This document shows, piece after piece, positions 6,738 to 52,984 of a stretch of DNA of 64,000 nt. How positions within the stretch are numbered: the first letter of the stretch is position 1; every line of letters begins with the position of its first letter. Both the position numbers and the translations under genes were made by a program. Source of the DNA: Lentibacter algarum (GTDB lineage Bacteria; Pseudomonadota; Alphaproteobacteria; Rhodobacterales; Rhodobacteraceae); the NCBI RefSeq assembly GCF_040580765.1, contig NZ_CP158687.1, forward strand, positions 930,001-994,000, written 5' to 3'. The notes below the pieces were generated by a model. That model had not been told where the DNA came from and did no database searches. It saw only the letters and a program-made list of their open reading frames with translations.

Positions 6738-6840
6738 ATTCAGGATTCCCGAAAATTACATTCGTTAAATCTAAACTATTTTGCGATTCAAAAAAACCCC
6801 ATATGCGCCCGTGCGACCCTATGTGTCTTTTTCTCTTTAA

Positions 6841-6914
6841 AAATATCCTGGGGGAGTGCGAGGGGGCGAGCCCCCTCGCGGGGTCGGATTTTCGCGCAGC
6901 GAAAATTCGAAGTC
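6841..6914 (-). repeat. Two-hairpin 3'-flanking element, copy 1
   Basis: The element begins 4 bases after the ferredoxin stop codon. Hairpin A: TCGGATTTTCGC (6884-6895) pairs with GCGAAAATTCGA (6899-6910) with one G-T wobble. Hairpin B: GCGAGGGGG (6858-6866) pairs with CCCCCTCGC (6871-6879). On the minus strand a GGATATTTTT tract follows, so it can act as a terminator of the P450-ligase-ferredoxin operon. Copies 2 and 3 are at 11337-11402 and 51641-51692. Confidence 0.8.
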
Positions 6915-7229
6915 TTAGACCTCTGGCACAATCAAAGTGAGACCATCCAGTGCCTGTGACGCCAGTATCTGGCAGGAGAGGCGGGATGTTGGCCCGCGCT
7001 CGGCCTCGGTTGCATCCAGCATGGCATCTTCAAATTCGCCAGCGGCGCCGGTTTGGGAGCTCCATGCCGCGTCGACATAGACATGGCAGGTTGCGCAGGC
7101 GAGGCTGCCGCCGCATTCGCCAATCACGTTCGGTACATTGTTGGCCACGGCGGCTTCCATCATGTTGGTTCCGTCGCTGACTTGCGCTGAGATTTCGCTG
7201 CCGTCGGGCAGTTTCCAAATGACCTTCAT
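6915..7229 (-). CDS. [2Fe-2S] ferredoxin of the adrenodoxin/putidaredoxin type
   Basis: This small electron carrier probably donates electrons to the P450 encoded in the same operon. Four cluster ligands are visible at Cys39, Cys45, Cys48 and Cys86. The spacing C-x5-C-x2-C-x37-C is that of the adrenodoxin/putidaredoxin class, which serves bacterial P450s. Length (104 residues) is typical. It is the last gene of P450-ligase-ferredoxin, 12 bp after the ligase stop, with AAGGGGA before its ATG. No ferredoxin reductase gene is present in the window, so the reductase must be encoded elsewhere. Confidence 0.93.
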   Translation of the reverse strand: MKVIWKLPDGSEISAQVSDGTNMMEAAVANNVPNVIGECGGSLACATCHVYVDAAWSSQTGAAGEFEDAMLDATEAERGPTSRLSCQILASQALDGLTLIVPEV

Positions 7230-11336: not shown

Positions 11337-11402
11337 TATCTCGGGGGAGGTTGGGGGCAAAGCCCCCAGCGGGTCGGATTTTTCCGAAAGAAAAATTCGA
11401 AC
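11337..11402 (-). repeat. Two-hairpin 3'-flanking element, copy 2
   Basis: The element starts 2 bases after the aldolase stop codon. Hairpin A: TCGGATTTTTC (11374-11384) pairs with GAAAAATTCGA (11390-11400) with the same G-T wobble as copy 1. Hairpin B: TGGGGGC (11352-11358) pairs with GCCCCCA (11362-11368). The inner stem bases differ from the other copies but pairing is kept. Confidence 0.8.
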
Positions 11403-12176
11403 TCAAATGCGCGCCCGCCAGTGCCCTTCCAGATCGCGCATAGCCTTTGCAAAGACGCCCACATCGACGCCAACGGCAAGAAACTGCGCTCCCCAGTCGG
11501 CATACTCCTGCGTGGCGGTTTGGCTGACGCCAAGGATACCAGCGGCTTTGTCGGACTCGCTGATGCGACCAAGCATGTCTTTGATCGCAGCTTTGACATC
11601 CTCTGCCGCAGAGTTGCCAGGGTGCCCCATGTCAGCGGCGAGATCGGCGGGGCCGATGAAGACGCCGTCCACGCCCTCGACGTCTAGAATGGCATCGAGA
11701 TTTTCCATGCCGAGGCGGGTCTCGACTTGGACGAGCAAACAGACTTCATCGTTGGCTGTCTGTACATAATCTTCAATCGCGCCGAACAGTGAAGCGCGTG
11801 CGCCAGCAGCGCCTGCACCGCGGATGCCATGAGGCGGGTAGCGCATGGCGCGCACGAGGGCTTTCGCTTGTTCTGCCGTGTCGACCATCGGCACAAGCAC
11901 GGTCTGCGCGCCTGCATCGAGCACTTGCTTCACCAGCCAGTCGTTGCCTGTGGGGATGCGTACGACCGCGTGGGAGTGTTTGCCTTCAAGGACTTGCAGC
12001 TGGGAGGTGATGGTTTGCAAATCGTTTGGAGCATGTTCTCCGTCGATGACGACCCAATCAAATCCTGCGGTCGCTACCATTTCGATCGGGTAGGGATGAG
12101 CGAAGCTTGACCAGACGCCGAGTTGCTTTTTGCCCGCTTTGAGAGCGGCTTTGAAGGGGTTGTGAGGGGCTGGCAT
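11403..12176 (-). CDS. HpcH/HpaI-family aldolase/citrate lyase-type protein
   Basis: A class II (metal-dependent) pyruvate-type aldolase of 257 residues. The signatures are GFDWVVIDGEHAPND (catalytic and metal region), VLVPMVDTAEQA, QVETRLGMENLD (metal-binding Glu) and GVFIGPADLAADMGH (metal-binding Asp). The family cleaves 4-hydroxy-2-oxo acids to pyruvate and an aldehyde. I took ATG 12176 because AAGGAGAG precedes it; the longer open frame would overlap the decarboxylase gene. It follows that gene by 10 bp, so the two form an operon. The combination may handle an aldehyde or oxo acid derived from an aromatic amino acid, but no substrate can be assigned. Confidence 0.88.
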   Translation of the reverse strand: MPAPHNPFKAALKAGKKQLGVWSSFAHPYPIEMVATAGFDWVVIDGEHAPNDLQTITSQLQVLEGKHSHAVVRIPTGNDWLVKQVLDAGAQTVLVPMVDTAEQAKALVRAMRYPPHGIRGAGAAGARASLFGAIEDYVQTANDEVCLLVQVETRLGMENLDAILDVEGVDGVFIGPADLAADMGHPGNSAAEDVKAAIKDMLGRISESDKAAGILGVSQTATQEYADWGAQFLAVGVDVGVFAKAMRDLEGHWRARI

Positions 12177-12186
12177 GGGTCTCTCC

Positions 12187-13596
12187 TTAAAGGGTCGCGG
12201 CGATTTCGGTGATGACATCATAGGCCATCATCACATCGGCGCGTGTGGCATCAAACTGGCCTGCTTGAAAGCGGATCACAAGAGCGCCTGTTGTGCGTGT
12301 TTGGGTGATGTAGATGCGGCCGTCGTCGTTGACCCGATCGACAAGGTTTTGGTTGAGTGCGTCAAGGTCTGTGGCGCTTTGGGGCGCGTAACGGAACGTG
12401 AAGAGCGAGAGCACAGGGTCGGTGATGATTTCAAAGTCTGGCGCTGCACGAAAACGCTCGCAGAGCTCTTCGGACCATTTCACATGATTGCGCAACATGG
12501 TGCGCAGGCCTTCAAGCCCGTAGGTGCGAAAGAGAAACCAAAGCTTGAGTGCGCGGAAGCGACGACCAAGGGGGACGGACCATTCAGAGTAGTTGATGAT
12601 CCCGTCTTTGCCATGTGTTTTCAGATATTCAGGCTGGATTGCCAAGGTGCGGGTCAGGTCTTCGGGGGCGCGCACGAAATGGGCGGAGAGGTCAAACTGC
12701 GTGCCCATCCATTTATGCGGGTTGAGCACGACGCTGTCGGCCTTTTCCACACCTGTCCAGAGCGAGCGGAATTCTTCACACAGCATCGCTGAGCCCGCCC
12801 AAGCCGCATCGACATGGGTGTAAAGCTCATGCGTGGCGGCGACATCGCAAACGGCAGATATATCATCGCAGGCGCCTGTGCCTGTGCCGCCTGTGCAGGC
12901 GATGACGCCAGCGGGGAGGAAGCCCGCGGCAAGATCGGCTTTGATGGCGGCGTCGAGTTTGGCGGGGTCCATGGCGCGCATAGGTCCATGCGTTGGGATG
13001 CGGACAAGGTTCTCTTGTCCGATGCCTGCGATCCAGATCGCGCGGTCAACGGACGTGTGCACCTCCTCAGAGGCATAGATGCGCAGGCGGGCTTGGCCTG
13101 TAAGGCCTTTCTGGTTCCCGGCCCAGTTGAGGGCTTTCTCGCGCATGGTGAGCACGGCGGCCAGCGTCGCGCCGCTGGCACTGTCTTGGATGACCCCGTG
13201 GAAGGCTTGCGGAAGGCCGAGCGCATCGCGCAGCCAGTCCATCATGCGTGTTTCCATCTCGGTGGCGGCAGGAGAGGTCTGCCACAGCATACACTGTGGC
13301 GCCATCACTGTTGTGAAGAAGTCGGCCAGCACGGCAGCGGGGGAGGCGTTGGACGGGAAGTAGGCAAAGAAGCGTGGGTGCTGCCAGTGGGTGATGCCGG
13401 GCATCACGATGCGCTCGAAATCCTTGATCACATCCTCCACAGGCTGGCCCTGTTCTGGGGCGGCTGCGGCGAGCTGTGCTGCGATTTCGCCCGGCTTTGT
13501 CTGGGCGCGCACAGGGCGCTCTCGCAAGGAACCGTGATACTCTGCTGCCCAATCGGCTACATAGCGGCCCCATTTTGGAAAATCTGTCCAGCGCAT
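12187..13596 (-). CDS. PLP-dependent aromatic-L-amino-acid decarboxylase family (group II)
   Basis: It is likely to decarboxylate an aromatic amino acid to its amine. The 469-residue protein aligns with the DOPA/tryptophan decarboxylase pattern: N-terminal ITHWQHPRFFAYFPSNAS, central DSASGATLAA, THVDAAWAGSAMLCEE (Asp contacting the PLP ring), and the PLP lysine Lys295 in LNPHKWMG. Distance from the usual bacterial tyrosine decarboxylases is not measurable here, and some homologues act as aldehyde synthases instead. It is the first gene of a two-gene unit with the HpcH-type aldolase and lies next to the homogentisate operon. Confidence 0.88.
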   Translation of the reverse strand: MRWTDFPKWGRYVADWAAEYHGSLRERPVRAQTKPGEIAAQLAAAAPEQGQPVEDVIKDFERIVMPGITHWQHPRFFAYFPSNASPAAVLADFFTTVMAPQCMLWQTSPAATEMETRMMDWLRDALGLPQAFHGVIQDSASGATLAAVLTMREKALNWAGNQKGLTGQARLRIYASEEVHTSVDRAIWIAGIGQENLVRIPTHGPMRAMDPAKLDAAIKADLAAGFLPAGVIACTGGTGTGACDDISAVCDVAATHELYTHVDAAWAGSAMLCEEFRSLWTGVEKADSVVLNPHKWMGTQFDLSAHFVRAPEDLTRTLAIQPEYLKTHGKDGIINYSEWSVPLGRRFRALKLWFLFRTYGLEGLRTMLRNHVKWSEELCERFRAAPDFEIITDPVLSLFTFRYAPQSATDLDALNQNLVDRVNDDGRIYITQTRTTGALVIRFQAGQFDATRADVMMAYDVITEIAATL

Positions 13597-51551: not shown

Positions 51552-51640
51552 CCTCTTATTTTTTATAGATATATTCCGCTGGTCCCGCGCAACAAGTTCT
51601 CTCTATCGGTCTAGGCGTTTGCTCTGCAAACAGCTTGGTG

Positions 51641-51692
51641 GGCTGGGGGCAAAGCCCCCAGATGGTCGGATTTTGCGAAGCAAAATTCGATA
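51641..51692 (-). repeat. Two-hairpin 3'-flanking element, copy 3
   Basis: The element starts 2 bases after the kynU stop codon. Hairpin A: TCGGATTTTGC (51666-51676) pairs with GCAAAATTCGA (51680-51690) with the conserved G-T wobble. Hairpin B: CTGGGGGC (51643-51650) pairs with GCCCCCAG (51654-51661). Order and distance match copies 1 and 2. Confidence 0.8.
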
Positions 51693-52886
51693 TCAAGTGA
51701 CAGCCGCGCGGGCGTGGTACTCAGGTTTGTCCCATAGTTTGCCCGTCATCACCTCCTCGATCACATCACAGGCGCGCAGAACATCGACCTCGTCGATGAA
51801 GAGTGGCGTAAAGCCAAAGCGCATGATGTCTGGCGCGCGGAAGTCGCCGATGACGCCGCGCGCAATCAGGGCTTGCATGGCGGCATAACCCTGTTCGAAA
51901 CTGAAGGAAATCTGGCTGCCACGCGCCGCCGCATCGCGTGGGGAGGCCAACGTGAGCATTGGGCAGCGCCGCTCAACCTCTTCCAAAAAGAGTTGCGTCA
52001 GCTCTTGGGAGCGGGTGCGCAGATCACTCATATCCACGGTCGCCCAAGCGTCGAGGGCGGCCTCAAGGCTCGCCAGAGCAAGGATCGGGGGCGTTCCGAC
52101 ACGCATCCGCTCAATACCTGCGCCTGCGCGATAGGACAGGTCAAAGGCAAAGGGGGCATCATGGCCAAGCCAGCCTGAAAGTGCAGGACGGACCAGATTG
52201 GCGTGCTGGGGGGCAACATAAATAAAGGCTGGCGCGCCAGGGCCGCCGTTGAGGTATTTATAGGTGCAGCCAACGGCAAAGTCGGCACGCGCCTCTGAAA
52301 GTTTCCCGTCTGTTGCACCTGCGGTATGGGCCAGATCCCAGATTGTGAGTGCGCCGACGCTATGCGCCTTGGCGGTGAGGGCTTTCATGTCATGCAGGCG
52401 GCCTGTGCGGTAGTCGACTTCTGTGATCAGGGTTACGGCGACGTCCTCGGTGATGTTTTCCTCAACCTCTTCAGGCGCGACGATGCGCAGTTCGTGGCCT
52501 TGGCCGAGAGATTTGATGAGGCCTTCGGCCATGTAGAGATCAGAGGGGAAGTTGCCGCTGTCTGAGAGGATCACGCGGCGTTCTGGGCGCAGCTCAAGGG
52601 CGGAGGCCAGTGCCTGATAGACCTTGATGGAGAGCGTATCGCCCATGACGACATGGCCAGCCTCGGCCCCGATCAGCTTTGCCACGCGGTCGCCGACTTC
52701 GGTGGCTTTGGCCATCCAGCCTGCCTTATTCCAGCCCGTGATGAGCATTTCGCCCCATTCTTCTGTCATGGCTTTGGCCACGCGCGCAGGCGCTGCCTTG
52801 GGCAGGGGGCCGAGTGAGTTGCCATCCAGATAAATCATCCCGTCGGGAATGTGGAACATGGCTTTGGTGGCGGCGAAGTCGGTCAT
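51693..52886 (-). CDS. kynU: Kynureninase
   Basis: This PLP enzyme cleaves kynurenine to anthranilate and alanine in tryptophan catabolism. The 397-residue protein has YLDGNSLGPLPKAAPARV at the N-terminus, GDTLSIKVYQALASAL, WDLAHTAGA (PLP-contacting Asp) and the Schiff-base Lys210 in GCTYKYLNGGPGAPAF, all kynureninase signatures. AAAGGA precedes ATG 52886; the longer frame to 52955 lacks support. No kynA or kynB is adjacent. It is divergent from the hydrolase/rhodanese operon and is followed by copy 3 of the two-hairpin element. Confidence 0.95.
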   Translation of the reverse strand: MTDFAATKAMFHIPDGMIYLDGNSLGPLPKAAPARVAKAMTEEWGEMLITGWNKAGWMAKATEVGDRVAKLIGAEAGHVVMGDTLSIKVYQALASALELRPERRVILSDSGNFPSDLYMAEGLIKSLGQGHELRIVAPEEVEENITEDVAVTLITEVDYRTGRLHDMKALTAKAHSVGALTIWDLAHTAGATDGKLSEARADFAVGCTYKYLNGGPGAPAFIYVAPQHANLVRPALSGWLGHDAPFAFDLSYRAGAGIERMRVGTPPILALASLEAALDAWATVDMSDLRTRSQELTQLFLEEVERRCPMLTLASPRDAAARGSQISFSFEQGYAAMQALIARGVIGDFRAPDIMRFGFTPLFIDEVDVLRACDVIEEVMTGKLWDKPEYHARAAVT

Positions 52887-52984
52887 GATATGTCCTTTGG
52901 CGCGGGGGCATGGTATTGGGATGGTACACCTTACGTGGTGTTGCGCGGAGGGCAAGGCAGATAGGCATTAGAAATGCGTTAGAC

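Follow-up and report, generated by a model that had tools for sequence, protein, structure and literature searches.

What is the element that recurs behind genes in this stretch of Lentibacter algarum DNA, and what might it do there? The window is the whole stretch that was analysed, 64,000 nt of contig NZ_CP158687.1 (GCF_040580765.1, positions 930,001-994,000, forward strand), and it belongs to a 3.28-Mb genome that consists of one contig. The original prediction described three copies of a two-hairpin element lying 2-4 nt after stop codons. All three are found in their places, with gaps of 4, 2 and 2 nt to the stops of minus-strand open reading frames (Table 1). They belong to a mosaic repeat that is found directly behind genes in the Rhodobacteraceae and close kin, the family of the window genome. 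The main feature of this repeat, a co-varying third strand, was absent from the prediction, as were the mirror-image tail and the motif GGATATTT..AGAAAAAG of copy 1.

Read in the sense of the upstream gene, the copies in the window consist of the stop, hairpin A, the dinucleotide CC, hairpin B and a C-rich tail, to which copy 1 adds the motif AGGATATTTTTAAAGAGAAAAAG. The full repeat has a variable hairpin A, a G/C hairpin B, a pyrimidine tail and then GG(A/G)TATTT-N4-AAGAARAAG, and the TATTT is nearly invariant right after the tail (74 and 31 elements). Only copy 1 has an intact tail in the window. RNA folding of the gene-sense strand gave z-scores of -4.34, -1.52 and -4.18 for copies 1-3, so that the fold of copy 2 is not outstanding. 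Rfam 15 had no match at the gathering score in the window, and two sub-threshold matches fell on copy 1.

Table 1. Parts of the three copies, and the open reading frames that precede them, in positions of the window
Feature	Position	Strand	Description
Open reading frame upstream of copy 1	6915..7229	-	104 aa; stop at 6915, 4 nt before copy 1
Copy 1 hairpin A	6884..6910	-	gene sense TCGAATTTT..AAAATCCGA, A.C mismatch
Copy 1 hairpin B	6860..6877	-	gene-sense arms GAGGGGG / CCCCCTC; stem extends to 6858-6879
Copy 1 linker	6857-6859	-	3 nt between right arm of hairpin B and tail
Copy 1 candidate third strand	6850..6856	-	gene-sense tail CTCCCCC, mirrors CCCCCTC; intact
Copy 1 3' motif	6827..6849	-	AGGATATTTTTAAAGAGAAAAAG
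Open reading frame upstream of copy 2	11403..12221	-	272 aa; stop at 11403, 2 nt before copy 2
Copy 2 hairpin A	11374..11400	-	
Copy 2 hairpin B	11353..11367	-	arms GGGGG / CCCCC
Copy 2 tail	11343..11349	-	CTCCCCC; 4/5 against GGGGG arm; imperfect, decayed
Open reading frame upstream of copy 3	51693..52955	-	420 aa; stop at 51693, 2 nt before copy 3
Copy 3 hairpin A	51666..51690	-	
Copy 3 hairpin B	51645..51659	-	arms GGGGG / CCCCC
Copy 3 tail remnant	51637..51641	-	CCACC, 4/5; followed by a different repeat

The prediction also spoke of an amplified 3'-end module, and this part is borne out. The exact hairpin A pattern TCGGATTTT-N3-14-AAAATTCGA occurs 11 times in the L. algarum genome and its reversed form does not occur, and the 3' motif has 58 matches there (3 of which overlap others) against 1 for the backward control. 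Among GTDB species contigs the exact hairpin A pattern was found in 77 stretches, mostly from Lentibacter and other Rhodobacteraceae; loci from unrelated organisms without the rest of the element (L019, L020, L023, L031, L054, L056, L061, L072, L085) were dropped before later counts. The mirror element with a GAGGGG stem, GAGGGG..CCCCTC-N3-CTCCCC, was counted 304 times, spread over 47 genomes of a set of 120 from the family (120 genera), and the backward pattern not once. Its number per genome ranges from 0 to 79, with the maximum in genome G110. In a sample of the phylum it occurs in 6 of 15 family genomes compared with 5 of 284 outside the family.

The tail and the right arm of hairpin B are mirror images of each other across a fixed linker of 3 nt, as in CCCCCTC-GCA-CTCCCCC and CCCTCTC-GCG-CTCTCCC; further examples are CTCCCCCC-GCA-CCCCCCTC, CCCCTCCC-AGA-CCCTCCCC and TCCCCCTC-GAA-CTCCCCCT. 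A tail that mirrors the right arm is complementary to the purine left arm in parallel orientation, which is the requirement of a major-groove third strand and not of antiparallel pairing. This was counted in a clean set, comprising the window and loci selected by hairpin A or the 3' motif and not by stem or tail, with misses included. In its 83 elements 451 of the 492 tail positions are the parallel complement, compared with 404.7 (sd 5.2, maximum 424) in 5000 shufflings of tails within equal stem length. A tail that copied the arm directly would account for 384 of the 492. The 53 positions with A in the arm stand opposite T in 43 cases, A in 4, C in 4 and G in 2. An earlier set of 64 elements had 364 of 377 tail positions mirrored.

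The length of the linker was compared over 0-8 nt. Full mirror tails numbered 19 at linker 3 against 1 and 1 at linkers 4 and 5 in stretches of the L. algarum genome, and 46 at linker 3 against 1 and 3 at linkers 2 and 4 in GTDB loci selected by hairpin A; these are the two unbiased groups, the 30 family loci and the G110 stretches having been picked via matches to the mirror pattern. In a further search the tail was left free, as a stem, N3 and any six pyrimidines, in the 120 family genomes. GGGGAG stems were found in 22 places, 14 with the mirror tail CCCCTC and none with the direct copy CTCCCC, and GGGAGG stems in 19 places, 7 with the mirror CCCTCC and none with the direct copy CCTCCC. The backward controls of such loose patterns were not empty (31 places for GGGGAG, 17 of them in genome G034, and 12 for GGGAGG), and it is therefore the ratio of mirror to direct tails that carries weight. 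TATT or TACT follows the mirror tail in 13 of the 14 and 4 of the 7 places, the exceptions being L238 and three places in G104. A two-hairpin switch, in which the tail would pair antiparallel with the left arm, would give a direct copy, seen in 0 of 22 and 0 of 19 places, and this candidate was rejected. A G-quadruplex or i-motif was set aside, there being only two runs of G or C per strand. The 17 matches in G034 read YYYYYY-N3-CCCCTC..GAGGGG and perhaps represent another triplex-type repeat of opposite topology.

Stem and tail also change together at orthologues of the three window sites. At site 1 arm and tail are GAGGGGG/CTCCCCC in L. algarum and L294, GGGGGGA/CCCCCCT in L289 and GGGGGGAG/CCCCCCTC in L291; L288 has another module there, L290 has no element and in L292 the site is cut by a contig end. 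At site 2 arms with their own mirror tails are GAGGGGG in L288 and L291, GGGGGG in L289 and GGGGG in L292 (the same sequence as L079). The L. algarum copy is decayed at this site, the element is absent in L290 and G417 is not covered. Site 3 has the arms GGGGG in L334, GAGGGGG in L335 (with another module in place of TATTT), GGGGGA in L336 and GGGGGGA in L337. In L334 and L337 the element is the second of two B hairpins, of which the first has no mirror tail; the L. algarum copy is again decayed, L342 has no element and G416 is not covered. All 12 orthologues classed as intact are mirrored, with six different arms. In hairpin A the inner stem changes at these sites and pairing is kept. Taken as sequence evidence, these comparisons show the tail changing as the mirror image of the stem across many stem alleles, orthologous sites included, while the linker stays at 3 nt.

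Purine arm, pyrimidine arm and matching third strand are consecutive on one strand, the arrangement of a potential intrastrand triplex. On the coding strand this would be a class III (pyrimidine) triplex and on the template strand a class I triplex of the purine motif. Holder et al. 2015 (PMC4666352) describe the purine motif as using G.G:C and A.A:T or T.A:T and as unable to form in RNA, and the pyrimidine motif as able to form in RNA, its C-rich form preferring acid. Should the purine motif be the one that matters, T and A would both be allowed in the coding-strand tail opposite a stem A:T pair.

Tails with a base other than T at such a place were sought in 394 family genomes, with the stem and TATT as anchors and T excluded. 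The base is A in 35, C in 2 and G in 3 of 40 places from 32 genera, with A in 28 of the 32. Under equal frequency of change the excess of A over C (35 to 2) has p = 5e-9 by places and 4e-7 by genera, though some of the 35 A may have arisen for a different reason, since the linker of all-G arms also mostly ends in A (47 of 51). Among loci not selected by tail in which all G:C triplets are intact, arm position 2 faces T in 72 of 72 cases, and the interior and last arm positions face T in 16, A in 3 and C or G in none (n = 19). In 120 genomes searched without the TATT anchor the 14 non-T tails had A in 7, C in 5 and G in 2; the anchored search was made because the loops of several of these read as the opposite strand. 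A tail of T or A follows the purine-motif rule and so points to DNA.

Hairpin A was compared in 134 distinct copies. As predicted, pairing is kept while the inner bases change: several Watson-Crick types occur at positions 6-11 and mismatches are few, in a pairing table of the eight commonest pair types per position. The G-T wobble reported for every copy is present on the plus strand; in the transcripts it is instead an A.C mismatch, because the genes are on the minus strand. In transcript sense this pair is the A.C mismatch in 90 of the 134 copies and G-C in the other 44, and the other listed mismatches are 6 A.C against 2 G.T. These mismatches agree weakly with a structure formed in DNA. 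The polarity of wobble pairs in hairpin B is uninformative (A.C 5, G.T 4, some in chance hairpins).

REP and BIME mosaic palindromes are extragenic, lie at 3' ends and have mosaic and tandem arrangements, and in these features the Rhodobacteraceae repeat is like them. To our knowledge REPs have no third strand. A REP with a RAYT transposase was rejected as an identity for the repeat; PF01797 had no match in the L. algarum genome and the controls were positive. Intrinsic (rho-independent) terminators likewise lie behind genes and have a T-rich stretch after a GC hairpin. The repeat differs from them in that about 11 nt (linker, tail and GGG) separate the hairpin from the nearly invariant TATTT, and the tract has only 3-5 T.

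According to Holder et al. (PMC4666352), bacteria have been known since 2000 to carry intrastrand triplex motifs. The closest known element is BoxC, also called the PIT element or TM_ECO, and judged by its potential intrastrand triplex the Rhodobacteraceae repeat is of the same kind and of a different family. Both are G/C-rich and intergenic, with a pyrimidine arm, a purine arm and a third purine strand, a second loop of 3 nt, a possible purine-motif triplex on one strand and many copies per genome. TM_ECO is described in that article as class II (Y-R-R), in the order C-rich arm, G-rich arm, G-rich third strand, with one 9-nt consensus and with neither orientation bias nor fixed distance to genes. 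In the Rhodobacteraceae repeat the template strand would be class I (R-R-Y), that is third strand, purine arm, pyrimidine arm; its arms are 5-9 nt with many co-varying alleles, and it is tied to gene ends and convergent gaps, hairpin A and the TATTT motif. Thus neither the class II order nor the absence of gene-placement bias is found in this repeat. Right arm and tail together make up a polypyrimidine mirror repeat and in this resemble the H-DNA treated by Holder et al. (PMC4666352). Here the left arm is conserved too, and all three strands would therefore come from one strand, unlike H-DNA.

Placement was analysed in six genomes with a codon-scored gene finder, using as background gaps of at least 40 nt in the same stretches as the elements; these stretches were picked around element matches, so they are independent of gene direction but unrepresentative in density. 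Two of the 63 elements lie inside predicted genes, and the rest fall between convergent (39), tandem (18) and divergent (4) genes, compared with 145 convergent, 441 tandem and 229 divergent background gaps. The convergent bias (39 of 61 against 145 of 815) has an odds ratio of 10.8 (p = 5e-17), and this location of most copies was beyond the reach of the original prediction. In 11 of the 14 convergent cases in L. algarum the end of the 3' motif falls between -2 and +8 nt from the stop of the convergent gene, and the element therefore fills the gap between two stops.

At Lentibacter-type loci 1 of 71 hairpin A copies is in a predicted gene, and the others are convergent (39), tandem sense (22) or tandem antisense (9), with no divergent case; 55 of these 70 lie 2-17 nt after a sense stop. 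The common orientation relative to the upstream gene, which the prediction had noted in the window, holds as a tendency (61 of 70 have a sense gene upstream) but not as a rule, given the 9 antisense copies, and over all elements of the six genomes tandem pairs have 8 sense against 10 antisense. G110 has 28 copies, 2 inside genes, 19 convergent, 4 tandem sense, 2 antisense and 1 divergent, at longer distances. In 27 plasmid records, the gene table of which is incomplete, the best match overlaps no listed feature in 25 of the 25 that are annotated. Inspection of 13 records placed the end of a sense gene at most 50 nt upstream of the match in 10; H20 and H22 have only an antisense gene with its stop just behind the match, and in H23 no listed gene lies within 200 nt of it.

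With the origin set at dnaA, the terminus half-way round and three overlapping duplicate rows dropped, 36 of 55 3' motifs in the L. algarum genome run with the replication fork. This bias is weak (p = 0.03), and gene orientation could be its cause. Canonical terminators are not depleted beside elements, either in L. algarum (3 of 15 against 6 of 21) or in G110 (1 of 20 against 0 of 17), and no support was obtained for the termination role that had been proposed. At L107 and L089 a canonical hairpin with a T-run adjoins the element, which can therefore coexist with an ordinary terminator.

The function of the repeat is most likely that of a DNA-structural stop or insulator at transcript ends. 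The tail could occupy the major groove of hairpin B as a third strand. Once the strands are parted by transcription or replication, the template would fold into a class I purine-motif triplex, with hairpin A perhaps as a second structured block. The folded template might impede the polymerase or re-annealing, and transcription arriving from either side would then end or be insulated within the short gap between the two stops. The RNA hairpins, together with the TATTT tract, may also contribute ordinary termination in one of the two directions. We tentatively favour, at rather less than even confidence, a mosaic repeat behind genes in which a template-strand triplex stops or insulates transcription between convergent stops. 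A broader claim is possible but doubtful: that these are naturally occurring DNA triplexes in which selection maintains the third strand, as the mirror covariation and the T-or-A rule suggest, and which act as structural insulators between converging transcription units. The undepleted terminators, the tandem orientation of 8 to 10 and the decay of the tail in two of the three window copies count against the template-triplex reading. A rival is an element that works as RNA, in which hairpins A and B and the C-rich tail would fold before TATTT and bring about intrinsic termination or 3'-end protection, perhaps as a class III pyrimidine RNA triplex. It keeps weight because hairpins behind stops that are followed by TATTT resemble transcript ends; the 2-17 nt spacing of hairpin A from sense stops, the stable RNA hairpins, the near invariance of TATTT and the rarity of canonical terminators in G110 (10 of 187 gaps of 40-600 nt) are consistent with it, and pyrimidine-type triplexes are possible in RNA according to Holder et al. 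(PMC4666352). We nevertheless consider it unlikely, since the T-or-A rule of the tail fits the purine and not the pyrimidine motif, the T tract is short, the mismatch tolerated in the hairpin A transcript is A.C and not G.U, half of the copies in tandem gaps run antisense to the gene and canonical terminators are not depleted.

The repeat may also be a self-spreading mosaic like BIME or BoxC, with no host role, merely tolerated at gene ends and with a fold that serves its own copying. Its genus-wide A.C signature in hairpin A, its presence or absence at orthologous sites with stems swapped as units, the tandem B copies and intruding modules and the range of 0 to 79 copies per genome would suit such an origin. 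Tolerance alone leaves the tenfold convergent bias and the exact fit between two stops unexplained, however, and the Y1 transposase (PF01797) found in the control genomes is missing from the L. algarum genome; this explanation seems unlikely. A binding site for a DNA- or RNA-binding protein would fit the outer bases of hairpin A (TCGRA..TCCGA), which are nearly invariant around variable inner bases, and the conserved purine-rich 3' motif. It would explain neither the mirror tail nor the substitution rule, and in at least 4 plasmid copies hairpin B lies too close to the stop for a hairpin A to fit in, which makes it very improbable.

Comparative evidence that the third strand matters comes from the many stem alleles, the natural joint changes at the same sites and the motif-specific rule, and the location between convergent genes indicates where its function might be sought. 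Holder et al. (PMC4666352) report that E. coli PIT elements acted neither as terminators nor as promoters and that footprinting did not back a stable triplex in vivo, which counts against the template-triplex reading. The co-varying third strand makes the question of a cellular role of DNA triple helices testable. In the open-access literature, the scope of our search, no report of the Rhodobacteraceae repeat was found, nor a paper joining intrastrand triplex with Rhodobacter, or Roseobacter with intergenic repeat or triplex-forming. The main text of PMC4666352 does not name Rhodobacter or Roseobacter; its database may well list these sites.

Parts of the repeat are also found in other combinations. 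The sequence C-run-GG-TATTT-N4-AAGAARAAG occurs behind other structures that have no mirror hairpin (L169-L188 of the L. algarum genome and the window; 21 convergent or tandem gaps have the motif only), and it is therefore a more general 3'-flank signal. In copy 3 the TATTT motif is replaced by another recurrent module (window positions 51588-51636), reading AAGC-N-GTTYGC..GCRAACGCG-ACCGACAGAGCGCACTTGTTGCG in gene sense, which likewise follows hairpin B in many copies, for example L012, L027, L034, L036, L050, L060, L077 and L335. A third palindromic module, TTCAAAAGC..GCTTTTGAA, lies between hairpin B and the C-rich tail in L033, L053, L062, L086 and L106. Hairpin B is repeated in tandem with a period of about 30-32 nt in L115, L057, L075, L037 and L083, where only the copy adjoining TATTT has the mirror tail.
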